A stretch of DNA of 64,000 bases from Pseudonocardia autotrophica (lineage in GTDB: Bacteria; Actinomycetota; Actinomycetes; Mycobacteriales; Pseudonocardiaceae). The notes under the pieces were generated by a model that was given only the letters and a program-made list of their open reading frames with translations, was not told the DNA's origin and made no database searches. Each line of letters starts with the position of its first letter. The stretch's first letter is position 1. The stretch is taken from contig NZ_AP018920.1 of the NCBI RefSeq assembly GCF_003945385.1, forward strand, positions 2,480,001-2,544,000. The letters run 5' to 3'. Position numbers and translations under genes: made by a program. Shown piece by piece: positions 14,217-62,974 of this stretch.

Positions 14217-14287
14217 CCACATGAGAGCTTAGGGTTCCCTACGTCAAGCACAGTGTCACAGCGTCTCGCTCTCTGGAGTTGCAACTG

Positions 14288-14524
14288 ATGTCGACGAACC
14301 CGTTTGACGACGAGGACGGCGAGTTCCACGCCCTCGTGAACGACGAGGGCCAGTACTCGCTCTGGCCGACGTTCGCCGAGGTCCCGTCCGGCTGGACCGT
14401 GGCGTACGGCCCCGGCCCCCGGCAGGACGTGCTCGACCACATCGAGCAGGTATGGACCGACATGCGCCCGAGAAGTCTGGTCGAGCGGATGGAGCGCGAC
14501 GCGGGCGAGCACGCCGGTGGGTGA
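14288..14524 (+). CDS. mbtH: MbtH-like NRPS partner protein
   Basis: A 78-aa MbtH-family protein. It has the invariant [20 protein letters not shown] start, the tryptophans of [13 protein letters not shown], and the WTDMRPRSL end. MbtH proteins bind and activate adenylation domains of non-ribosomal peptide synthetases. No such synthetase lies in this window, so its partner must be encoded elsewhere. ATG 14288 follows a CTGGAG ribosome site; an upstream in-frame TTG at 14279 is less likely. The stop overlaps the start of the next gene by 8 bases, which indicates coupling. Confidence 0.95.
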
Positions 14525-15821
14525 GATCGGCGGCGCCGGGCCGATCCTCGACGTCGTCGGGATCGGTTTCGGGCCGGGAAACCTCGCACTGGCCGTCGCC
14601 GCGACCGAGCACGCCGAGCCGCTCTCGGTCCGCTTCCTCGAACGCCAGGCCCGGTTCGGGTGGCACGGCGGGATGCTGATCCCGGGCGCCCGGATGCAGG
14701 TCAACTTCGTGAAGGACCTCGCGACGGTCCGTAACCCGAGCAGCAGCTTCGGGTTCCTCAACTATCTCGCGGACCGGGGGAGGCTGATCGACTTCCTCAA
14801 CCGGCAGACGTTCTTCCCGACCCGGCTGGAGTACCACGACTACCTCGGCTGGGCGGCGGCCCGGCTCGACGACGTCGTGGACTACGGCACCGAGGTCACC
14901 GCGGTCCGCCCCGCCGGGCCGGTACTGGAGATCGAGGCCCGCCGGGCCGGTGCCGTCGTCCGCTACCGCGCCCGCGCGGTGGTGATCGCGACCGGGCTGG
15001 CCCCGCACCTGCCCGACGGCGTCACCCTCGGCGACCGGGTCTGGCACAACCGCGACCTGGTCCCGAACGTCGAGCGGCTCGTCGCCGACCTCGGGGACGA
15101 CGCACGCCGGTTCGTGGTCGTGGGCGCCGGGCAGAGCGCGGCCGAGTCGGTCGAGTACCTGCACCGCAGCTTCCCCGGCGCGCAGGTGCACGCGGTGTTC
15201 GGACGCTGGGGCTACAGCCCGGCCGACGACAGCCCCTTCGCCAACCGGGTGTTCGACCCGGACGCGGTGGACGACTTCCACCGCAGCACCCCCGAACTCC
15301 GGCAGCGGATCACCGAGCGGCACCGCAACACCAACTACTCGGTGGTCGATCCGGACCTGATCGGCGAGCTGTACGAGACGCACTACGCCGAGCGGGTCGC
15401 CGGGCGTGAACGCCTGCACTTCCACCGGATGAGCGAGGTCGTCGCGCTGGCCGCGAACGAGCGCGGCGCCGATGTGACCGTCCGCTCGGGGGTGGACGGC
15501 GTGGTCTCGGACCTGCGGGCGGACGCGGTCGTCTTCGCCACCGGATACCGCTCCGGGGACCCGGCCCGGTTCCTCGGGGGCGGGCTCACGGTGCACCGGG
15601 ACGAGTGCGGCCGGATCCCGATCGGCCGGAACTACCGGCTGCCGGTGCGCGGTACCGATGCCCCGGTGTTCGTCCAGGGTGCGACCGAGCACACCCACGG
15701 ACTGGCGTCCACGCTGCTGTCGAACGTCGCCGTCCGCAGCGGCGAGATCCTCGATGCGGTGCTCGACCTGCGGGGCACCGCGGGATCCGGCATCCGGCCC
15801 GCCCGTGCGCTCGCCGTCTGA
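14517..15821 (+). CDS. L-ornithine/L-lysine N-hydroxylase (siderophore)
   Basis: A 434-aa class B flavin monooxygenase of the IucD/PvdA/SidA family. It N-hydroxylates the side-chain amine of ornithine or lysine to make hydroxamate iron ligands. The FAD motif is [17 protein letters not shown] near residue 13. [19 protein letters not shown] is the family's substrate-side loop. [16 protein letters not shown] near 200 binds NADPH, and [10 protein letters not shown] is the late FATGY motif. The HFL-type loop and [10 protein letters not shown] fit ornithine hydroxylases, so ornithine is the better guess. It overlaps mbtH by 8 bases, and a 57-base gap separates it from the isochorismate synthase gene. 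Confidence 0.93.
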
Positions 15822-15878: not shown

Positions 15879-17087
15879 GTGACCGACCAGCGTTCCGTGC
15901 CCGCCGCGACCGCGGAGCGGCCGGCGGCCGAGCCGGCGCCGTCGCCACTGCCCGGCTACCGGCACGGGGACTACTTCTTCTCCTCGCCCTACCGGAGCCT
16001 GCTGGCCCGCGGCACCGCCGTCGCATCCGACCACGCCGGGCCCGTCGCCCGCTGGTCGGACGCCGCGTCGTCGCTGCTCACGGTGGCCCGCGCCCGCGGG
16101 ATCGCCGATCCGGTCGTCGTCGGTGCACTCGGCTTCGATCCGGCCACCCCGGCGCGGTTGCTGGTGCCGCAGCAGGTGGTCCGGGGGCGTCCGCCGCGGT
16201 GGTTGCCCGGGGTCCCGCCGCCACTGCCCGGACGCTGGCGGGTGGCCCACACCCCGCCGGTCGAGGAGTACCTGGCCGGCGTCGAGGCCGCCGTCCGCGC
16301 GATCGGTGCCGGTGAACTGGAGAAGGTCGTGCTGTCCCGGGCGCTCGACCTGACCGGCGACGGGCCGGTCCCGATCGGGTCGCTGCTGCGCCGGCTGGCC
16401 GACCGCAACGCCTGCGGGCACGTGTTCGCCGCGGACGTCTCCGATCCCGGCGAGCCCGGGACCAGGATGCTGGTGGGCGCCAGCCCGGAGCTGCTGGTGT
16501 CCCGGCGGGGGAGCGCGGTGGTCTCCAATCCGCTCGCCGGTTCCGCCCCGCGGCATCCGGACCCGGTCACCGACCGTGCGCGGGCCGCCGCGCTCGTCGC
16601 GTCGGAGAAGGACCGCCGGGAGCACCGGGCCGTCGTCGATGATCTCGCTGCCCGGCTGGCCCCGCTCTGCGCGGACCTCGTGGTGCCGCCGGAGCCGGTG
16701 CTGGTGCGGACGCCGTCGATGTGGCACCTCTCGACCCGGGTCACCGGGACGGTGCGGGACCCGGAGACCGGGTCACTCGACATCGCGCAGGCGCTGCATC
16801 CCACACCGGCCGTCGGCGGGGTGCCGCTCGCCACCGCGACCGGGCTGATCGCGACGGCGGAGGGCTACGACCGCCGCTACTACACCGGTGTCGTCGGGTG
16901 GACCGACGAGCACGGCGACGGGGAGTGGGCGATCGTCCTGCGCTGCGCCGAGGTCCGGGGCGCGGCACTGCGCCTCTATGCGGGCGGCGGCATCGTCGCC
17001 GGCTCCGAGCCGGCCGCGGAGCTGGCCGAGACGCGGGCGAAGTTCCGGACGTTCCTCGCCGCCGTCGGACTGGACGCCGAGCCGTGA
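15879..17087 (+). CDS. dhbC: Isochorismate synthase (2,3-DHB/salicylate branch)
   Basis: A 402-aa chorismate-binding enzyme that isomerises chorismate to isochorismate, the first step to catecholate or salicylate siderophore caps. Conserved pieces are [11 protein letters not shown], the metal- and substrate-binding [43 protein letters not shown] and the late [13 protein letters not shown]. The layout fits EntC/DhbC better than bifunctional salicylate synthases, because the pyruvate lyase is not obvious. GTG 15879 follows a GGAAGGAG ribosome site. The following isochorismatase gene supports the DHB branch. Confidence 0.92.
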
Positions 17088-17112: not shown

Positions 17113-17793
17113 ATGACCACCGGACGTTCCCTCGGACGGATCGACCCGTACGACCCGCCGGACCCGGCGGACTTCCCCCCGGGCCGGGTCGGCTGGCGGC
17201 CCGATCCGCGCCGGGCCGCCCTGCTGGTGCACGACATGCAGCGGTACTTCCTGCGCCCGTTCGGCCCCGGCGACCGGCCGCTGCCCGGCCTGCTGACCGG
17301 GCTGGCCGCACTGGTGCGGAACTGCCGCGCCGCGGGTGTCCCGGTGATCTACACCGCGCAGCCGGGCCGGCAGACCCCGCAGGAACGCGGCCTGCTCACC
17401 GACATGTGGGGTGCCGGTATCGGTGGGGTCGTCGACACCGCACCGGAGCTGGAGGCGATCGTCGACGAGGTGGCTCCGGAGCCGGGCGACCTGCAGCTGG
17501 TCAAGTGGCGCTACAGCGCCTTCCAGCGCACCCCGCTGCGCGCCGAGCTGACCCGGCTCGGACGCGACCAGCTGCTGATCACCGGGGTGTACGCCTCGAT
17601 CGGCTGCCTGGCCACCGCGATCGAGGCGTTCATGCTCGACGTCCAGCCGTTCCTGGTCGGCGACGGCGTCGCCGACTTCTCCCGGGCCGACCACGACACC
17701 GCGATCGACTGGGTGGCCCGCCGGTGCGGCGTGGTGACCTCGCTGGCCGAGGTGTCGGCCGCGCTGGCCCCGGTGCCGGCGGAGGGCCGGTGA
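17113..17793 (+). CDS. dhbB: Isochorismatase domain protein without carrier domain
   Basis: A 226-aa isochorismatase that would cut isochorismate into 2,3-dihydro-DHB and pyruvate. The catalytic triad is visible: Asp41 (LLVHDMQRYF), Lys in LVKWRYSAF, and Cys in ITGVYASIGCLATAIE. It closely follows the EntB/DhbB pattern but ends where those proteins continue into an aryl carrier domain. Here the carrier domain is encoded by the next gene, whose GTG start overlaps this stop (GTGA). ATG 17113 lies 25 bases after the isochorismate synthase stop. Confidence 0.92.
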   Translation: MTTGRSLGRIDPYDPPDPADFPPGRVGWRPDPRRAALLVHDMQRYFLRPFGPGDRPLPGLLTGLAALVRNCRAAGVPVIYTAQPGRQTPQERGLLTDMWGAGIGGVVDTAPELEAIVDEVAPEPGDLQLVKWRYSAFQRTPLRAELTRLGRDQLLITGVYASIGCLATAIEAFMLDVQPFLVGDGVADFSRADHDTAIDWVARRCGVVTSLAEVSAALAPVPAEGR

Positions 17794-18710
17794 CCGCGTC
17801 ACCCGGACCGGAATGGCTGCACGCGGAGGTGACGGCGGTGTTCCCCGGCGGGCTCGACGGCGTCGGCCCGGCGGAGGACCTGCTCGACCTGGGCATCGAC
17901 TCGGTCCGGCTGATGCTGCTCGTCGAGCGCTGGCAGAGCGCCGGGTTCGACGTCGACCTGGTCGGCCTCGCCGAGCGGCCCACCCTCGCCGGGTGGCTGG
18001 AGCTGCTCCGCGCCGGGGCGCCCAGCGCGGATCCGGCTCCCGGCACGGCCGGCCCGCTGACCACGACCGTCCTGCGGATCGAGCAGCTCACCCCGCGGAT
18101 GGTCCGGGTCACCCTGGACGACCGTGCGGCGCGGTTCGCCGGTGCCCGGCCCGGCGCGTACGCGCTGCTGCGCGCCGACGGGATCGCCGAGGCGCGGCCG
18201 GTCACCGTGCACCCGCACCCCGCCAGCGGCGAGGTGGACGTCGATCTGGTCGTCCACGACCAGGGTCCGCTCGGCCGCTGGGCGGGCGGTGTCCGCCGTG
18301 GTGCCGAGGTCCTCCTCGACGGGCCGCACGGGGTGCCGGAGCTGCCCGGCGGTCCAGCGGACTGGACGCTGCTGGTCGCCGACCATCCGGCGCAGCCGGC
18401 GCTCGCGGCCCGGGTGGCCGCCCTGGGGGCGGCGGACCGGGCGGTCGTGGTCGCGGTGGTTCCGGACGCGGCGGAGGAACAGCTGCTGCCGACCGCTGCC
18501 GACCTCACGACCGTGTTCGTGCACACCGGCGACGTCGAGCCCGTGCTGCGTGCTGTCCGAGCGGCGGTGCCGGGGACCGGCCGTGGGCGGGCCTGGCTGG
18601 CAGGGGAGCGGCACCGGGTGCATGCGCTGGGTGAGGCCCTGGCCGCGCTCCCCGCGCTGGCCGGACGGTGCGTCGCGGAGCCCTACGGGGCGGTCCCGGC
18701 CGTGGCGTGA
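17790..18710 (+). CDS. Aryl carrier protein fused to siderophore-interacting (SIP) reductase domain
   Basis: A 306-aa protein with an unusual domain order. Residues 1-75 form a phosphopantetheine carrier domain with DLGIDSVRLMLLVERWQ (attachment Ser38) and VGLAERPTLAGWLELL, closest in pattern to the C-terminal carrier of EntB/DhbB. Residues from about 90 to the end match a ViuB-like siderophore-interacting protein: the FAD-binding ARPVTVHPHP, the DVDLVVHDQGPLGRWAGG strand with the typical His, GAEVLLDGPHG, and a C-terminal Rossmann half. SIPs reduce ferric siderophores to release iron. GTG 17790 overlaps the isochorismatase stop. One polypeptide would thus hold the DHB-loading site and an iron-release domain. 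The C-terminal part is somewhat degenerate, so activity is uncertain. Confidence 0.8.
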   Translation: MTASPGPEWLHAEVTAVFPGGLDGVGPAEDLLDLGIDSVRLMLLVERWQSAGFDVDLVGLAERPTLAGWLELLRAGAPSADPAPGTAGPLTTTVLRIEQLTPRMVRVTLDDRAARFAGARPGAYALLRADGIAEARPVTVHPHPASGEVDVDLVVHDQGPLGRWAGGVRRGAEVLLDGPHGVPELPGGPADWTLLVADHPAQPALAARVAALGAADRAVVVAVVPDAAEEQLLPTAADLTTVFVHTGDVEPVLRAVRAAVPGTGRGRAWLAGERHRVHALGEALAALPALAGRCVAEPYGAVPAVA

Positions 18711-31331: not shown

Positions 31332-32342
31332 TTACTGAGTTGGCTGTAGGACGGGTTGATTGATCCACGCCTGCTCGGGCAGGCGCGGCGGGCTGGGCCG
31401 GCGACTGAATCGCTCGGGATACTGGGCGTGTGCGCGGTCGAGGACGGTCTGACGCTGAGCCCGGACCTCGGTCGCGGTGTCGAAGTGGATCGACGCCGGG
31501 GTGTGCATGCCGATGCCGGAGTGCCGATGCTCGTGGTTGTAGTGCTCGAAGAACCGCTCGCAGAACGCGCGGGCATCAGCGAGCGAGCCGAACCGGTCCG
31601 GGAAGTCCGGCACGTACTTCAGCGTCTTGAACTGCGCCTCGGAGAACGGGTTGTCATTCGAGCACTGCGGCCGGGAATGTGACCGGCAGATACCGAGATC
31701 GACCATCAGCTCCGATACCGGTTTCGAGGTCATCGACCCGCCCCGGTCGGCATGAATCGTCTGCGGGATGACGTGGTTGCGGGCGACTGCGTCGGCGAGG
31801 AAATCCTTCGCCACGACGGCATCCTCAGCGTTCGCGGCGAGCCATCCGACTACGTAGCGGGAGAAGATGTCGAGCACCACATACAGCTTGTACCACTCGC
31901 CCTTCCGCGGGCCCTTCAGCGCGGTGATGTCCCACGACCACACCTCGCTCGGGCCATGAGCGACCAGCTCCGGGCGCACCCGCGGCGGATGCGTGGCCTG
32001 GGCGCGCCGTTCCCGGTTCTGACCCGCTGCGCGGGCGATCCGGTACATGCTCGACTGCGAGCACCACCACCGGCCCTCGTCGAGCTCCCGGGCCCACACC
32101 TGCGGAATGGCCAGATCCCGGTAGTCCTCGGAGTTCAGCAGCGCGAGCACGGCGGCACGCTCGTCGTCGGTGATCGTCGAGGGCGGGAGCCGGCGCGCAC
32201 GGTGCGGGCCGTGCAGCGGCCCGAGCGTCACCCCCGCCGGGTCGGCGCGGCGGTAGTGCGTGGCCCGCGACCGACCGGTCAACGCGCACGCCGCCTTGAT
32301 CGACACCTCAGCGGCGCGCAACTCGGTGAACGCGCCGTTCAA
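31332..32342 (-). CDS. IS-B OrfB, DDE transposase (copy 1)
   Basis: A 336-aa integrase-core transposase. The catalytic triad is visible as Asp in EVWSWDITALKGPRKGEWYK, Asp in IHADRGGSMTSKPV, and Glu in NDNPFSEAQFKTLKY; HYNHEHRHSGIGMHTP is the usual IS3-family tail. The TTG start at 32342 overlaps the OrfA stop (TTGA). Because the frame is open further upstream within orfA, a frameshifted OrfAB fusion, normal for the IS3 family, is also possible. It sits inside the IS30-A transposase gene. Intact, so the element may be active. Confidence 0.93.
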   Translation of the reverse strand: MNGAFTELRAAEVSIKAACALTGRSRATHYRRADPAGVTLGPLHGPHRARRLPPSTITDDERAAVLALLNSEDYRDLAIPQVWARELDEGRWWCSQSSMYRIARAAGQNRERRAQATHPPRVRPELVAHGPSEVWSWDITALKGPRKGEWYKLYVVLDIFSRYVVGWLAANAEDAVVAKDFLADAVARNHVIPQTIHADRGGSMTSKPVSELMVDLGICRSHSRPQCSNDNPFSEAQFKTLKYVPDFPDRFGSLADARAFCERFFEHYNHEHRHSGIGMHTPASIHFDTATEVRAQRQTVLDRAHAQYPERFSRRPSPPRLPEQAWINQPVLQPTQ

Positions 32343-41039: not shown

Positions 41040-42050
41040 TTACTGAGTTGGCTGTAGGACGGGTTGATTGATCCACGCCTGCTCGGGCAGGCGCGGCGGG
41101 CTGGGCCGGCGACTGAATCGCTCGGGATACTGGGCGTGTGCGCGGTCGAGGACGGTCTGACGCTGAGCCCGGACCTCGGTCGCGGTGTCGAAGTGGATCG
41201 ACGCCGGGGTGTGCATGCCGATGCCGGAGTGCCGATGCTCGTGGTTGTAGTGCTCGAAGAACCGCTCGCAGAACGCGCGGGCATCAGCGAGCGAGCCGAA
41301 CCGGTCCGGGAAGTCCGGCACGTACTTCAGCGTCTTGAACTGCGCCTCGGAGAACGGGTTGTCATTCGAGCACTGCGGCCGGGAATGTGACCGGCAGATA
41401 CCGAGATCGACCATCAGCTCCGATACCGGTTTCGAGGTCATCGACCCGCCCCGGTCGGCATGAATCGTCTGCGGGATGACGTGGTTGCGGGCGACTGCGT
41501 CGGCGAGGAAATCCTTCGCCACGACGGCATCCTCAGCGTTCGCGGCGAGCCATCCGACTACGTAGCGGGAGAAGATGTCGAGCACCACATACAGCTTGTA
41601 CCACTCGCCCTTCCGCGGGCCCTTCAGCGCGGTGATGTCCCACGACCACACCTCGCTCGGGCCATGAGCGACCAGCTCCGGGCGCACCCGCGGCGGATGC
41701 GTGGCCTGGGCGCGCCGTTCCCGGTTCTGACCCGCTGCGCGGGCGATCCGGTACATGCTCGACTGCGAGCACCACCACCGGCCCTCGTCGAGCTCCCGGG
41801 CCCACACCTGCGGAATGGCCAGATCCCGGTAGTCCTCGGAGTTCAGCAGCGCGAGCACGGCGGCACGCTCGTCGTCGGTGATCGTCGAGGGCGGGAGCCG
41901 GCGCGCACGGTGCGGGCCGTGCAGCGGCCCGAGCGTCACCCCCGCCGGGTCGGCGCGGCGGTAGTGCGTGGCCCGCGACCGACCGGTCAACGCGCACGCC
42001 GCCTTGATCGACACCTCAGCGGCGCGCAACTCGGTGAACGCGCCGTTCAA
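41040..42050 (-). CDS. IS-B OrfB, DDE transposase (copy 2)
   Basis: Same 336-residue transposase as at 31332, with all three catalytic residues present and the TTG start at 42050 overlapping the orfA stop. The reading frame is intact. Its partner orfA upstream is broken by the ISAs1 element, so this copy can no longer make OrfA or an OrfAB fusion and probably depends on the other copies for movement. Confidence 0.92.
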   Translation of the reverse strand: MNGAFTELRAAEVSIKAACALTGRSRATHYRRADPAGVTLGPLHGPHRARRLPPSTITDDERAAVLALLNSEDYRDLAIPQVWARELDEGRWWCSQSSMYRIARAAGQNRERRAQATHPPRVRPELVAHGPSEVWSWDITALKGPRKGEWYKLYVVLDIFSRYVVGWLAANAEDAVVAKDFLADAVARNHVIPQTIHADRGGSMTSKPVSELMVDLGICRSHSRPQCSNDNPFSEAQFKTLKYVPDFPDRFGSLADARAFCERFFEHYNHEHRHSGIGMHTPASIHFDTATEVRAQRQTVLDRAHAQYPERFSRRPSPPRLPEQAWINQPVLQPTQ

Positions 42051-46280: not shown

Positions 46281-47177
46281 TTACCTGTCGGCGTCGCGCT
46301 GGGTGCGACGATAGTCGTCTTCGTACTCGTCGGGTGAGAGCCCGCCGAGGCGGGCCTGGATCCGGCGCGGGTTGTACCAGCCGTCGAGGTAGCGGATCAG
46401 GGCGTGCTCGGCGTCGCGGCGGGTTGTGAAGGTGGTGCCGGGCCAGTAGAGCAGCTCGATCTTGAGGGTGGACCACAGGTTCTCGGCGAGGGCGTTGTCG
46501 TAGCTGTCCCCTGTGGACCCGGTCGACGGGGCGACACCGGCGTCGACCAGGCGCTGGGTGAGTCGCAGCGCCGTGTACTGGGCTCCCTTGTCGCTGTGAA
46601 AGATCAACTGGCCGGGGCGCAGGTCCCGCGAGCGCAGGGCGTGGTTGAGCGCGGTGAGGACCAGCGCGGTCGTCGCACGGGGGTCGGTGGCCCAGCCGAC
46701 GACCCGGTTGGAGAACGCGTCACGCACCGAGGCCAGCCACAACACGCCCTCGCCGGTGACGATCCGGGTCAGGTCGGCCACCCAGACGCGGTTCGGCGCG
46801 GTCGCGGTGAAGTCGCGTTCGAGCAGGTCCGGCGCCGGCCGGTGGGCGGGGTTCTGCCGGGTCGAGCCGCCCTTCCAGCCGCGGCGCAGGTGGGCGCCCT
46901 GTAGGCCGTGCTCGCGCATGATCCGCTCGACGCGCTTGCGGCCGACGTGCACGCCCTGGCGGCGCAGCTCGAGCCAGACCCGCGGGGAGCCGTAGGTGGT
47001 GGCGAACTCGCTGATCGAGCGGATCTTCACGATTTGCTCGAGCAGGACGGCGTCGTCGAGCTGCCGCTGCGATGGTGACGCGCGGCGGGCGCGCCAGTCG
47101 TAGTAGGTCGAGGCCGCGATGTTCAGGACCCGTAGTACGAGACCGACGGGGAAGTCATGGGCGTCGACGAAGCTCAT
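46281..47177 (-). CDS. IS-C OrfB, DDE transposase (copy 1)
   Basis: A 298-aa IS3-family transposase. It reads TYGSPRVWLELRRQGVHVG, then the first Asp in RVWVADLTRIVTGEGVLWLA, the second in LIFHSDKGAQYTALRLTQR, and the Glu in NALAENLWSTLKIELLYW. ATG 47177 overlaps the orfA stop (ATGA). The frame is intact. The element's right inverted repeat is broken by IS-B copy 3, so this copy should be immobile despite intact genes. Confidence 0.92.
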   Translation of the reverse strand: MSFVDAHDFPVGLVLRVLNIAASTYYDWRARRASPSQRQLDDAVLLEQIVKIRSISEFATTYGSPRVWLELRRQGVHVGRKRVERIMREHGLQGAHLRRGWKGGSTRQNPAHRPAPDLLERDFTATAPNRVWVADLTRIVTGEGVLWLASVRDAFSNRVVGWATDPRATTALVLTALNHALRSRDLRPGQLIFHSDKGAQYTALRLTQRLVDAGVAPSTGSTGDSYDNALAENLWSTLKIELLYWPGTTFTTRRDAEHALIRYLDGWYNPRRIQARLGGLSPDEYEDDYRRTQRDADR

Positions 47178-47485
47178 GACCACCTCCGGGTCGGGCCGAT
47201 CTCGCTGGCGAAATAGGCGCTCGCCGCGCGCAGGACCTCGTTGACCCGCCGCAGCTCGGCGTTCTCCTTCGCCAACCGCCGGTTCTCGGCGAGCATGTCG
47301 GTCGACGGCCGATCATCGCGCTCGCCCTTGTCGGCCTCCGCTTGGCGGACCCAGTTGCGCAGGGCCTCGTGATGCACCCCGAGCTGCTGCGCGAGCCCGC
47401 GGAACGTCGGGCGGGGGTCGGACTCCCGATACAGCCGGACCGCTCGTTCGCGCAGCTCATCGGGGTACTTCTTCGGTGCGGGCAC
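47174..47485 (-). CDS. IS-C OrfA (copy 1)
   Basis: A 103-aa HTH protein: APKKYPDELRERAVRLYRES, then AQQLGVHHEALRNWVRQAE, and a zipper (AENRRLAKENAELRRVNEVL) with the standard IS3 end (ASAYFASEIGPTRRWS). It is closely related to IS3-D OrfA, so the two elements share an ancestor. It starts with GTG after a GGAAGGAAGG ribosome site. Confidence 0.9.
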   Translation of the reverse strand: MPAPKKYPDELRERAVRLYRESDPRPTFRGLAQQLGVHHEALRNWVRQAEADKGERDDRPSTDMLAENRRLAKENAELRRVNEVLRAASAYFASEIGPTRRWS

Positions 47486-48100: not shown

Positions 48101-49107
48101 ACGGCGCGTTCACCGAGTTGCGCGCCGCTGAGGTGTCGATCAAGGCGGCGTGCGCGTTGACCGGTCGGTCGCGGGCCACGCACTACCGCCGCGCCGACCC
48201 GGCGGGGGTGACGCTCGGGCCGCTGCACGGCCCGCACCGTGCGCGCCGGCTCCCGCCCTCGACGATCACCGACGACGAGCGTGCCGCCGTGCTCGCGCTG
48301 CTGAACTCCGAGGACTACCGGGATCTGGCCATTCCGCAGGTGTGGGCCCGGGAGCTCGACGAGGGCCGGTGGTGGTGCTCGCAGTCGAGCATGTACCGGA
48401 TCGCCCGCGCAGCGGGTCAGAACCGGGAACGGCGCGCCCAGGCCACGCATCCGCCGCGGGTGCGCCCGGAGCTGGTCGCTCATGGCCCGAGCGAGGTGTG
48501 GTCGTGGGACATCACCGCGCTGAAGGGCCCGCGGAAGGGCGAGTGGTACAAGCTGTATGTGGTGCTCGACATCTTCTCCCGCTACGTAGTCGGATGGCTC
48601 GCCGCGAACGCTGAGGATGCCGTCGTGGCGAAGGATTTCCTCGCCGACGCAGTCGCCCGCAACCACGTCATCCCGCAGACGATTCATGCCGACCGGGGCG
48701 GGTCGATGACCTCGAAACCGGTATCGGAGCTGATGGTCGATCTCGGTATCTGCCGGTCACATTCCCGGCCGCAGTGCTCGAATGACAACCCGTTCTCCGA
48801 GGCGCAGTTCAAGACGCTGAAGTACGTGCCGGACTTCCCGGACCGGTTCGGCTCGCTCGCTGATGCCCGCGCGTTCTGCGAGCGGTTCTTCGAGCACTAC
48901 AACCACGAGCATCGGCACTCCGGCATCGGCATGCACACCCCGGCGTCGATCCACTTCGACACCGCGACCGAGGTCCGGGCTCAGCGTCAGACCGTCCTCG
49001 ACCGCGCACACGCCCAGTATCCCGAGCGATTCAGTCGCCGGCCCAGCCCGCCGCGCCTGCCCGAGCAGGCGTGGATCAATCAACCCGTCCTACAGCCAAC
49101 TCAGTAA
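48097..49107 (+). CDS. IS-B OrfB, DDE transposase (copy 3)
   Basis: 336 aa, same protein as at 31332, with intact catalytic residues (Asp in WSWDITALKG, Asp in HADRGGSM, Glu in FSEAQFKTLK). The start TTG 48097 overlaps the orfA stop. The copy is complete with perfect ends and a clean duplication, so it is a candidate active element. Confidence 0.92.
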   Translation: MNGAFTELRAAEVSIKAACALTGRSRATHYRRADPAGVTLGPLHGPHRARRLPPSTITDDERAAVLALLNSEDYRDLAIPQVWARELDEGRWWCSQSSMYRIARAAGQNRERRAQATHPPRVRPELVAHGPSEVWSWDITALKGPRKGEWYKLYVVLDIFSRYVVGWLAANAEDAVVAKDFLADAVARNHVIPQTIHADRGGSMTSKPVSELMVDLGICRSHSRPQCSNDNPFSEAQFKTLKYVPDFPDRFGSLADARAFCERFFEHYNHEHRHSGIGMHTPASIHFDTATEVRAQRQTVLDRAHAQYPERFSRRPSPPRLPEQAWINQPVLQPTQ

Positions 49108-59238: not shown

Positions 59239-60249
59239 TTACTGAGTTGGCTGTAGGACGGGTTGATTGATCCACGCCTGCTCGGGCAGGCGCGGCGGGC
59301 TGGGCCGGCGACTGAATCGCTCGGGATACTGGGCGTGTGCGCGGTCGAGGACGGTCTGACGCTGAGCCCGGACCTCGGTCGCGGTGTCGAAGTGGATCGA
59401 CGCCGGGGTGTGCATGCCGATGCCGGAGTGCCGATGCTCGTGGTTGTAGTGCTCGAAGAACCGCTCGCAGAACGCGCGGGCATCAGCGAGCGAGCCGAAC
59501 CGGTCCGGGAAGTCCGGCACGTACTTCAGCGTCTTGAACTGCGCCTCGGAGAACGGGTTGTCATTCGAGCACTGCGGCCGGGAATGTGACCGGCAGATAC
59601 CGAGATCGACCATCAGCTCCGATACCGGTTTCGAGGTCATCGACCCGCCCCGGTCGGCATGAATCGTCTGCGGGATGACGTGGTTGCGGGCGACTGCGTC
59701 GGCGAGGAAATCCTTCGCCACGACGGCATCCTCAGCGTTCGCGGCGAGCCATCCGACTACGTAGCGGGAGAAGATGTCGAGCACCACATACAGCTTGTAC
59801 CACTCGCCCTTCCGCGGGCCCTTCAGCGCGGTGATGTCCCACGACCACACCTCGCTCGGGCCATGAGCGACCAGCTCCGGGCGCACCCGCGGCGGATGCG
59901 TGGCCTGGGCGCGCCGTTCCCGGTTCTGACCCGCTGCGCGGGCGATCCGGTACATGCTCGACTGCGAGCACCACCACCGGCCCTCGTCGAGCTCCCGGGC
60001 CCACACCTGCGGAATGGCCAGATCCCGGTAGTCCTCGGAGTTCAGCAGCGCGAGCACGGCGGCACGCTCGTCGTCGGTGATCGTCGAGGGCGGGAGCCGG
60101 CGCGCACGGTGCGGGCCGTGCAGCGGCCCGAGCGTCACCCCCGCCGGGTCGGCGCGGCGGTAGTGCGTGGCCCGCGACCGACCGGTCAACGCGCACGCCG
60201 CCTTGATCGACACCTCAGCGGCGCGCAACTCGGTGAACGCGCCGTTCAA
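59239..60249 (-). CDS. IS-B OrfB, DDE transposase (copy 4)
   Basis: 336 aa, same protein as at 31332, with all catalytic residues. It overlaps the orfA stop at 60249. The copy is complete. Transcription from it runs in the same direction as dabA, so any outward promoter could drive the orphaned 3' part of dabA, but none was recognised. Confidence 0.92.
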   Translation of the reverse strand: MNGAFTELRAAEVSIKAACALTGRSRATHYRRADPAGVTLGPLHGPHRARRLPPSTITDDERAAVLALLNSEDYRDLAIPQVWARELDEGRWWCSQSSMYRIARAAGQNRERRAQATHPPRVRPELVAHGPSEVWSWDITALKGPRKGEWYKLYVVLDIFSRYVVGWLAANAEDAVVAKDFLADAVARNHVIPQTIHADRGGSMTSKPVSELMVDLGICRSHSRPQCSNDNPFSEAQFKTLKYVPDFPDRFGSLADARAFCERFFEHYNHEHRHSGIGMHTPASIHFDTATEVRAQRQTVLDRAHAQYPERFSRRPSPPRLPEQAWINQPVLQPTQ

Positions 60250-61769: not shown

Positions 61770-62081
61770 GTGCCCGCACCGAAGAAGTACCCCGATGAGC
61801 TGCGCGAACGAGCGGTCCGGCTGTATCGGGAGTCCGACCCCCGCCCGACGTTCCGCGGGCTCGCGCAGCAGCTCGGGGTGCATCACGAGGCCCTGCGCAA
61901 CTGGGTCCGCCAAGCGGAGGCCGACAAGGGCGAGCGCGATGATCGGCCGTCGACCGACATGCTCGCCGAGAACCGGCGGTTGGCGAAGGAGAACGCCGAG
62001 CTGCGGCGGGTCAACGAGGTCCTGCGCGCGGCGAGCGCCTATTTCGCCAGCGAGATCGGCCCGACCCGGAGGTGGTCATGA
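61770..62081 (+). CDS. IS-C OrfA (copy 2)
   Basis: 103 aa, same protein as the OrfA at 47174, with HTH and leucine zipper. GTG 61770 follows GGAAGGAAGG. The stop overlaps the orfB start (ATGA at 62078). Intact. Confidence 0.9.
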   Translation: MPAPKKYPDELRERAVRLYRESDPRPTFRGLAQQLGVHHEALRNWVRQAEADKGERDDRPSTDMLAENRRLAKENAELRRVNEVLRAASAYFASEIGPTRRWS

Positions 62082-62974
62082 GCTTCGTCGACGCCCATGA
62101 CTTCCCCGTCGGTCTCGTACTACGGGTCCTGAACATCGCGGCCTCGACCTACTACGACTGGCGCGCCCGCCGCGCGTCACCATCGCAGCGGCAGCTCGAC
62201 GACGCCGTCCTGCTCGAGCAAATCGTGAAGATCCGCTCGATCAGCGAGTTCGCCACCACCTACGGCTCCCCGCGGGTCTGGCTCGAGCTGCGCCGCCAGG
62301 GCGTGCACGTCGGCCGCAAGCGCGTCGAGCGGATCATGCGCGAGCACGGCCTACAGGGCGCCCACCTGCGCCGCGGCTGGAAGGGCGGCTCGACCCGGCA
62401 GAACCCCGCCCACCGGCCGGCGCCGGACCTGCTCGAACGCGACTTCACCGCGACCGCGCCGAACCGCGTCTGGGTGGCCGACCTGACCCGGATCGTCACC
62501 GGCGAGGGCGTGTTGTGGCTGGCCTCGGTGCGTGACGCGTTCTCCAACCGGGTCGTCGGCTGGGCCACCGACCCCCGTGCGACGACCGCGCTGGTCCTCA
62601 CCGCGCTCAACCACGCCCTGCGCTCGCGGGACCTGCGCCCCGGCCAGTTGATCTTTCACAGCGACAAGGGAGCCCAGTACACGGCGCTGCGACTCACCCA
62701 GCGCCTGGTCGACGCCGGTGTCGCCCCGTCGACCGGGTCCACAGGGGACAGCTACGACAACGCCCTCGCCGAGAACCTGTGGTCCACCCTCAAGATCGAG
62801 CTGCTCTACTGGCCCGGCACCACCTTCACAACCCGCCGCGACGCCGAGCACGCCCTGATCCGCTACCTCGACGGCTGGTACAACCCGCGCCGGATCCAGG
62901 CCCGCCTCGGCGGGCTCTCACCCGACGAGTACGAAGACGACTATCGTCGCACCCAGCGCGACGCCGACAGGTAA
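62078..62974 (+). CDS. IS-C OrfB, DDE transposase (copy 2)
   Basis: 298 aa, same protein as at 46281. Catalytic Asp, Asp and Glu are in RVWVADLTRI, LIFHSDKGAQ and NALAENLWSTLK. ATG 62078 is preferred over GTG 62072 because of the ATGA overlap. With both inverted repeats intact, this copy should be mobile. Confidence 0.92.
   Translation: MSFVDAHDFPVGLVLRVLNIAASTYYDWRARRASPSQRQLDDAVLLEQIVKIRSISEFATTYGSPRVWLELRRQGVHVGRKRVERIMREHGLQGAHLRRGWKGGSTRQNPAHRPAPDLLERDFTATAPNRVWVADLTRIVTGEGVLWLASVRDAFSNRVVGWATDPRATTALVLTALNHALRSRDLRPGQLIFHSDKGAQYTALRLTQRLVDAGVAPSTGSTGDSYDNALAENLWSTLKIELLYWPGTTFTTRRDAEHALIRYLDGWYNPRRIQARLGGLSPDEYEDDYRRTQRDADR

Follow-up and report, generated by a model that had tools for sequence, protein, structure and literature searches.

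An aryl carrier domain joined to a siderophore-interacting protein fold in Pseudonocardia, and its possible role in siderophore assembly

Results

A carrier domain and a reductase fold in one reading frame

We analysed a stretch of 64,000 nucleotides of Pseudonocardia autotrophica (contig NZ_AP018920.1 of assembly GCF_003945385.1, positions 2,480,001 to 2,544,000; hereafter the window), in which one gene encodes an aryl carrier domain followed by the fold of a siderophore-interacting protein (SIP) (Table 1). An earlier note on this DNA had assigned an EntB/DhbB-type carrier with Ser38 in the motif DLGIDS to its N-terminus, and this assignment holds: the phosphopantetheine-binding (PP-binding, PF00550) profile of Pfam matches residues 22-72 with 23.2 bits (gathering score 20.8), and in a search of PDB sequences residues 238-283 of the EntB carrier 2fq1 match residues 29-74 (E 6.2e-7). 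The C-terminal part falls into the two families expected of a SIP, with FAD_binding_9 matching residues 136-181 (37.9 bits, above the gathering score, over profile positions 71-118 of 120 only) and the Pfam SIP family matching residues 190-284 (51.1 bits, above the gathering score), and the ViuB/SIP structure 8c4l aligns with residues 88-284 (E 1.1e-14). No family was found for the fusion in NCBIfam at E ≤ 1 or in PHROGs at E ≤ 0.01. The gene is a single frame of 306 codons, free of stops from GTG to TGA, and its G+C content at codon positions 1/2/3 is coding-like in both halves (0.83/0.51/0.94 in codons 1-84 and 0.89/0.57/0.91 in codons 85-306).

Table 1. Position of the fused gene, its parts and the genes of the same run in the window (aa, amino acids).
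Feature	Position	Strand	Basis
Fused gene: aryl carrier domain and SIP-fold domain, 306 aa	17790..18710	+	GTG start
Aryl carrier (PP-binding) domain, residues 1-75	17790..18014	+	PF00550; EntB carrier 2fq1
Ser38 codon, predicted phosphopantetheine site (GIDS)	17901..17903	+	Sequence; invariant in 8 of 8 fusions
SIP-fold domain, residues 88-306	18051..18707	+	
Val138, column of the flavin-stacking Tyr in ordinary SIPs	18201..18203	+	Alignment columns
MbtH-like protein, first gene of the run	14288..14524	+	PF03621, 94 bits
Lys/Orn-type N-monooxygenase	14517..15821	+	PF13434, 338.7 bits
Isochorismate synthase (DhbC/EntC type)	15879..17087	+	TIGR00543, 260.2 bits (cut-off 224.75)
Isochorismatase without carrier domain, 226 aa	17113..17793	+	PF00857, 125.7 bits

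As the earlier note had observed, the isochorismatase upstream lacks a carrier domain, PF00857 being its only Pfam family at E ≤ 1, and its stop overlaps the GTG of the fusion by 4 nucleotides (nt). Isochorismatase and carrier are thus on separate genes and do not form a bifunctional protein of the EntB type. An inverted repeat, TAGGG-TT-CCCTA (14230-14241), precedes the MbtH-like gene by about 50 nt and is faintly reminiscent of a DtxR/IdeR box; a full DtxR/IdeR-type consensus had no match at three or fewer mismatches in the window or in a locus at 6.58 Mb of the same genome (L104) that is described below.

The fusion recurs in Pseudonocardia

Two protein-database searches, over 5.8 billion proteins with 8000 candidates scored in each, yielded eight clusters with the carrier and SIP architecture, namely the window's own (P0002), P0003-P0008 and P0015, of which P0008 appears in only one of the two lists. 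The seven other fusions, found where the earlier note had suggested looking for the same join in other genomes, are 41-83% identical to the window protein by alignment, each contains the PP-binding, FAD_binding_9 and SIP families, and all eight proteins are 293-319 aa long with the SIP part absent from none. All three fusions with a named source come from Pseudonocardia (P. kongjuensis, Pseudonocardia sp. SCN 72-86 and Pseudonocardia sp. TRM90224), and the last of these (P0015) is identical, letter for letter, to the fusion of a genome in our set, G044. Among 62 Pseudonocardia genomes, the fusion was matched end to end in two, the window's own and G044. In an order-wide sample it was found in 1 of 397 genomes (the window's own) at E ≤ 1e-42, in a scan that scored about five first-look candidates per listed genome and could therefore miss other fusions. 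A scan of genome contigs gave 45 loci and no further fusion, the carrier and SIP matches there being in different frames or apart, and none of 36 stretches of viral contigs that matched a pattern encodes a relative of the fusion.

Ser38 is invariant in all eight fusions, within the G-[LI]-D-S motif of aryl carriers. Relative to the window protein, the five distant members are 42-53% identical in the carrier half and 43-50% in the SIP half. Within the SIP half, positions such as Arg136, Glu148, His156, Trp164, Asp198, Glu297 and Tyr299 are invariant in 8 of 8. In a tree of SIP sequences (the eight fusions and 60 chosen non-fused rows, comprising 56 of 85 non-fused SIP gene calls and four database proteins), the fused SIP parts form one clade containing all eight, with a support of 100/98. 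The carrier tree (44 rows, 83 columns) is weakly resolved and leaves the eight fused carriers ungrouped (3 changes).

The SIP half has lost residues of flavin stacking and of the siderophore pocket

We compared the fusions with 55 ordinary SIPs in a MAFFT alignment, many of these SIPs being close relatives of each other; the 55 are the 60 non-fused tree rows without L033 (broken), L114, L115, L074 and L102 (distant or short). In the SbSIP structure, Tyr-60 and Tyr-225 stack on the flavin ring and His-77 and Gly-81 contact the flavin phosphates, according to the part of PMC11965169 consulted, which also cites Lys-45, Lys-236 and Lys-239 of SpSIP as the proposed siderophore pocket. The first stacking Tyr, in the motif R-x-Y-[TS], is present in 55 of 55 ordinary SIPs and in one of the eight fusions, while the other seven have Val (Val138 in the window protein). 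The basic pocket residue, the K/R of vKLfFP that corresponds to Lys-45 of SpSIP, is found in 52 of 55 ordinary SIPs and in none of the fusions. The Arg of RRHL falls from 54/55 to 1/8 and the Trp of GYW from 55/55 to 3/8, and the residue in the Arg63 column is His in three fusions; the Tyr of GYW and the Asp of GDE are retained in all eight. The stretch between vKLfFP and R-x-Y is 8-15 residues long in the fusions versus 29-44 in 52 of the 55 ordinary SIPs, although the remaining three (L076, L081 and L100) are equally short (8-13) and yet keep the Tyr. Overall, the fusions retain 31-37 of 53 family-conserved columns, whereas ordinary SIPs, assessed by leave-one-out, retain a median of 47/50 and at the lowest 35/52, so that the ranges touch.

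The Tyr-60 column contains Val138 in both the MAFFT alignment and the 4yhb alignment, and the 8c4l alignment made by HMMER places gaps at these residues instead, with the Tyr absent from the fusion there too. When the pattern R-x-[YF]-[TSA]-[VILPMAWR] was counted anywhere in the protein, it occurred in 83 of the 85 non-fused SIP gene calls (some genes being counted twice under two locus ids), and the two without it are pieces of broken genes. The earlier note had taken ARPVTV as a mark of the SIP pattern. Membership in the family stands, but this motif is a residue lost rather than one retained, because ordinary SIPs carry R-x-Y-[TS] at that place. The SIP half thus has the fold, the Pfam families and the pyrophosphate-loop His and Trp of a SIP reductase, without its flavin-stacking Tyr in R-x-Y-[TS] or its basic pocket residue. 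Since both of these are lost and the loop is short, it probably does not work as an ordinary reductase, and the proposal of a single protein linking early synthesis with the release of iron is not supported.

Carrier and SIP genes lie end to end in other genomes

At the loci compared, genes were named from protein starts, motifs and profiles, some of them with a Pfam check. Six Pseudonocardia genomes (G006, G031, G030, G025, G014 and G028) have, in this order at one locus, EntA, EntC, EntE, isochorismatase, a stand-alone carrier of 77-81 aa and a SIP. In five of them the SIP directly follows the carrier and is followed by a non-ribosomal peptide synthetase (NRPS); in G014, an MbtH-like gene stands between carrier and SIP and no NRPS comes directly after. 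In all six, a carrier-less isochorismatase-like gene overlaps the stand-alone carrier by 4 nt, and seven Streptomycetaceae loci show the carrier-then-SIP order as well. Among 33 distinct stand-alone carrier genes in the actinobacterial loci compared, 12 overlap the following SIP by 4 nt, one precedes a broken SIP and two are separated from the SIP by one gene (G014 and G231). Because carrier-SIP pairs stand at this place in other genomes, the isochorismatase and fusion of the window correspond, in their order, to isochorismatase, carrier and SIP elsewhere with one boundary lost, and adjoining carrier and SIP genes may have been the source of the fusion.

The proposal of the earlier note that the carrier domain had moved from the isochorismatase to a reductase is not supported, and such a move need not be assumed. 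Stand-alone carriers are common at the loci compared, and in griseobactin biosynthesis DhbB is an isochorismatase without a carrier and the carrier, DhbG, is separately encoded, as described in the part of PMC12210187 consulted; Actinobacteria were not searched for fused isochorismatase-carrier genes.

The pathway appears dispersed in both genomes with a known fusion locus

In G044, the order is EntC-like gene, isochorismatase, fusion and NRPS, and the first 452 residues of this NRPS match Condensation-domain places in the window's genome, where the first condensation domain of a candidate NRPS at 5.88-5.92 Mb is the best match. The gene context of the fusion is thus that of an aryl carrier: EntC and isochorismatase adjoin it, EntA-like and EntE-like genes lie elsewhere in the genome, and in G044 an NRPS stands directly behind. 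The window's genome has a second isochorismate synthase above the TIGR00543 cut-off (6.37 Mb), whereas the window isochorismatase is the only close one, the two other matches being 28-32% identical. At 6.58 Mb we found EntA-like and EntE-like genes, a 78-aa stand-alone carrier and a broken SIP. In both genomes EntC, isochorismatase and fusion appear to lie apart from the EntA-like and EntE-like genes (2.50, 5.92 and 6.58 Mb in the window's genome; contigs C1 and C31 in G044).

The G044 protein closest to the EntE-like ligase of the window's genome (65% identity) is encoded on another contig than the fusion, beside EntA-like and SIP-like genes, and no carrier was found near it in the 18 kb examined by gene calls and a six-frame profile search (E ≤ 1). 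With the 78-aa carrier as query, two places of G044 matched; one is the fusion, the other a carrier at a separate aryl-acid locus. This second locus (L125, contig C78) has DAHP-synthase-like (3-deoxy-D-arabino-heptulosonate 7-phosphate synthase), isochorismatase-like, carrier and EntE-like genes, named by the resemblance of their protein starts, and perhaps makes an acid of the 3-hydroxyanthranilate or aminosalicylate type. The fused carrier is the most plausible partner of the EntE-like ligase in G044, and for this reason the carrier half of the fusion is probably in use.

Some further features of the window's genome were noticed. The SIP gene of the EntA/EntE/carrier/uptake locus at 6.58 Mb (L104:12090-12958, minus strand; about 6586089-6586957 of C1) is split over two frames, and is either a broken gene or the product of a sequencing error. 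A second carrier fusion (L106:8802-9896, minus strand; about 4783801-4784895 of C1) combines an N-terminal PP-binding domain (22.6 bits) with a xylose-isomerase-like TIM barrel (PF01261, 134 bits), which resembles an AsbF-type 3-dehydroshikimate dehydratase; it overlaps an NRPS-type gene by 4 nt and has a SIP gene beside it. Within the window, an identical 324-aa protein is encoded by four open reading frames (ORFs) at 31332-32306 (-), 41040-42014 (-), 48133-49107 (+) and 59239-60213 (-), probably copies of an insertion element, and ORFs of 300 and 103 aa are found together twice, at 46281-47485 (-) and 61770-62974 (+), with lengths and coding scores equal in the two places, probably a second insertion element.

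Discussion

We favour, with a probability of roughly 0.53, the reading that the fusion is a carrier for 2,3-dihydroxybenzoate (DHB) with a repurposed, probably non-redox SIP domain, in an assembly line for a siderophore that is probably of mixed catecholate-hydroxamate type. It draws on four features of the sequences: the carrier domain retains its Ser, two genomes share the gene order EntC, isochorismatase and fusion, the C-terminal part has a SIP fold, and the flavin-stacking Tyr and the basic pocket residue have been lost. Ser38 would be phosphopantetheinylated, an EntE-type ligase encoded at 6.58 Mb would load its arm with DHB, and the aryl group would be handed to the starter condensation domain of an NRPS, for which the gene at 5.92 Mb is the best candidate. 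We take the aryl group as most likely 2,3-dihydroxybenzoyl in view of the EntC and isochorismatase genes together with the EntA-like and EntE-like ones, and the product would be part hydroxamate because of the N-monooxygenase of the run. Another aryl acid is possible, given that pseudonochelin, a Pseudonocardia siderophore mentioned in the part of PMC12971057 consulted, contains 5-aminosalicylate. The SIP-derived domain would be a non-redox partner that docks, stabilises or holds the carrier, standing in for the isochorismatase domain of EntB, and the SIP-fold tail may perhaps dock or hold the loaded carrier. A tentative extension, for which the odds are somewhat below even, is that a ferric-siderophore reductase fold, having lost the residues that stack on flavin and bind the siderophore, was domesticated in this way and that its old pocket may hold or dock the aryl-phosphopantetheine arm, as a pseudo-reductase serving biosynthesis.

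Several observations weigh against this reading. The pyrophosphate-loop His, Gly and Trp and the second stacking Tyr (Tyr299) are retained in all eight fusions, so that the SIP half could possibly bind some flavin or nucleotide, which is the main evidence against a pseudo-enzyme, and the fusion of G044 retains the first stacking Tyr as R-x-Y-A (T to A). Conservation in the two closest relatives is lower for the SIP half (79-80% identity) than for the carrier half (89%). In the window the fusion has no NRPS, EntE or EntA gene as a neighbour, the stand-alone carrier at 6.58 Mb follows the EntE-like gene, so the fused carrier is not the sole candidate in that genome, and G044 is a draft of 110 contigs (96% complete) from which a further carrier could be missing. 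As for the origin, the fused SIPs are not nested among the carrier-adjacent SIPs in the tree, and an approximately unbiased test neither supports nor rejects descent from them (p 0.091 for the fusions with 14 adjacent SIPs, p 0.102 for the fusions with L113/L097). Moreover, 18 of the 33 stand-alone carriers are without a neighbouring SIP, and the six loci from Pseudonocardia, which supply 5 of the 12 overlapping pairs, were picked for the closeness of carrier and SIP.

The retained loop residues and Tyr, the fold and the Tyr of G044 would suit a bifunctional enzyme whose SIP half, attached to the carrier, still reduces some substrate, be it a ferric siderophore or not, with flavin bound in a changed pocket. 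We consider this doubtful, because the Tyr is Val in seven of eight, the basic pocket residue is gone from all eight, the Arg63 column and the GYW Trp have changed in three and five fusions, respectively, and reduction is covered by ten other PF08021 matches over the cut-off in the genome (two partial, and one being the broken SIP at 6.586 Mb). Loss of the redox residues with the fold and loop kept would also agree with a sensor in which binding of a ferric siderophore, flavin or nucleotide gates carrier loading as feedback on synthesis; with the siderophore-pocket residue lost from all eight, we regard this as quite improbable.

It is also unlikely that the carrier is the only part of use and the SIP part a leftover without harm. 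The chief argument for such a remnant is that the SIP half has changed faster than the carrier half in the two closest relatives, and the several lost signature residues and the low count of family-conserved columns point the same way. In the five distant members, by contrast, both halves are conserved to about the same degree, and the SIP half of the fusions has invariant positions of its own and a fixed Val in seven of eight, and is always present in proteins of similar length. The possibility raised in the earlier note of a gene-fusion accident is likewise disfavoured by eight intact, diverged members, although it is still likely that just one of the two halves is catalytic in the usual sense. 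An artefact of assembly or annotation is refuted in practice by the single frame, the composition and the seven further proteins; a missed stop or frameshift, which the note had named as a danger to its reading, is excluded in practice because those proteins have the same join.

The carrier and SIP parts are each of known kinds, and their fusion is the variant. The carrier is of the same type as that of EntB/DhbB and has the same position in the pathway. In EntB/DhbB, however, the carrier stands C-terminally of the isochorismatase, whereas in the fusion it precedes a SIP fold and the isochorismatase has a gene of its own. SIP domains joined to other proteins of iron pathways have a precedent in IrtA, where the SIP is fused to a transporter; in the siderophore interaction domain of IrtAB (6tek) the partner is a transporter, whereas in the fusion it is a carrier protein. 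Separate isochorismatase and carrier genes occur, as here, in griseobactin (DhbB and DhbG) and Stenotrophomonas (EntB and EntB'), and a SIP domain on the carrier, as in our fusion, is not mentioned in the part of PMC12210187 consulted. With the SIP/ViuB reductases (8c4l, 2gpj, 4yhb and 6geh) the fusion shares the fold over residues 86-306, the two Pfam families and the pyrophosphate-loop residues, and unlike them it lacks the flavin-stacking Tyr and the basic pocket residue and has a shortened loop and a carrier in front. A carrier-SIP fusion is not described in the titles and abstract openings of the open-access papers listed by the literature searches.

The fusion ties a carrier of siderophore assembly to a fold whose known setting is otherwise the release of iron, and since redox residues have been lost, a changed job is indicated rather than a simple bifunctional enzyme. 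Such proteins may be annotated as ferric reductases, and P0007 is indeed named 'NADPH-dependent ferric siderophore reductase/aryl carrier-like protein' in one source. If the SIP domain does bind the loaded arm of the carrier, the starter unit of an NRPS would be docked or protected in a new manner.
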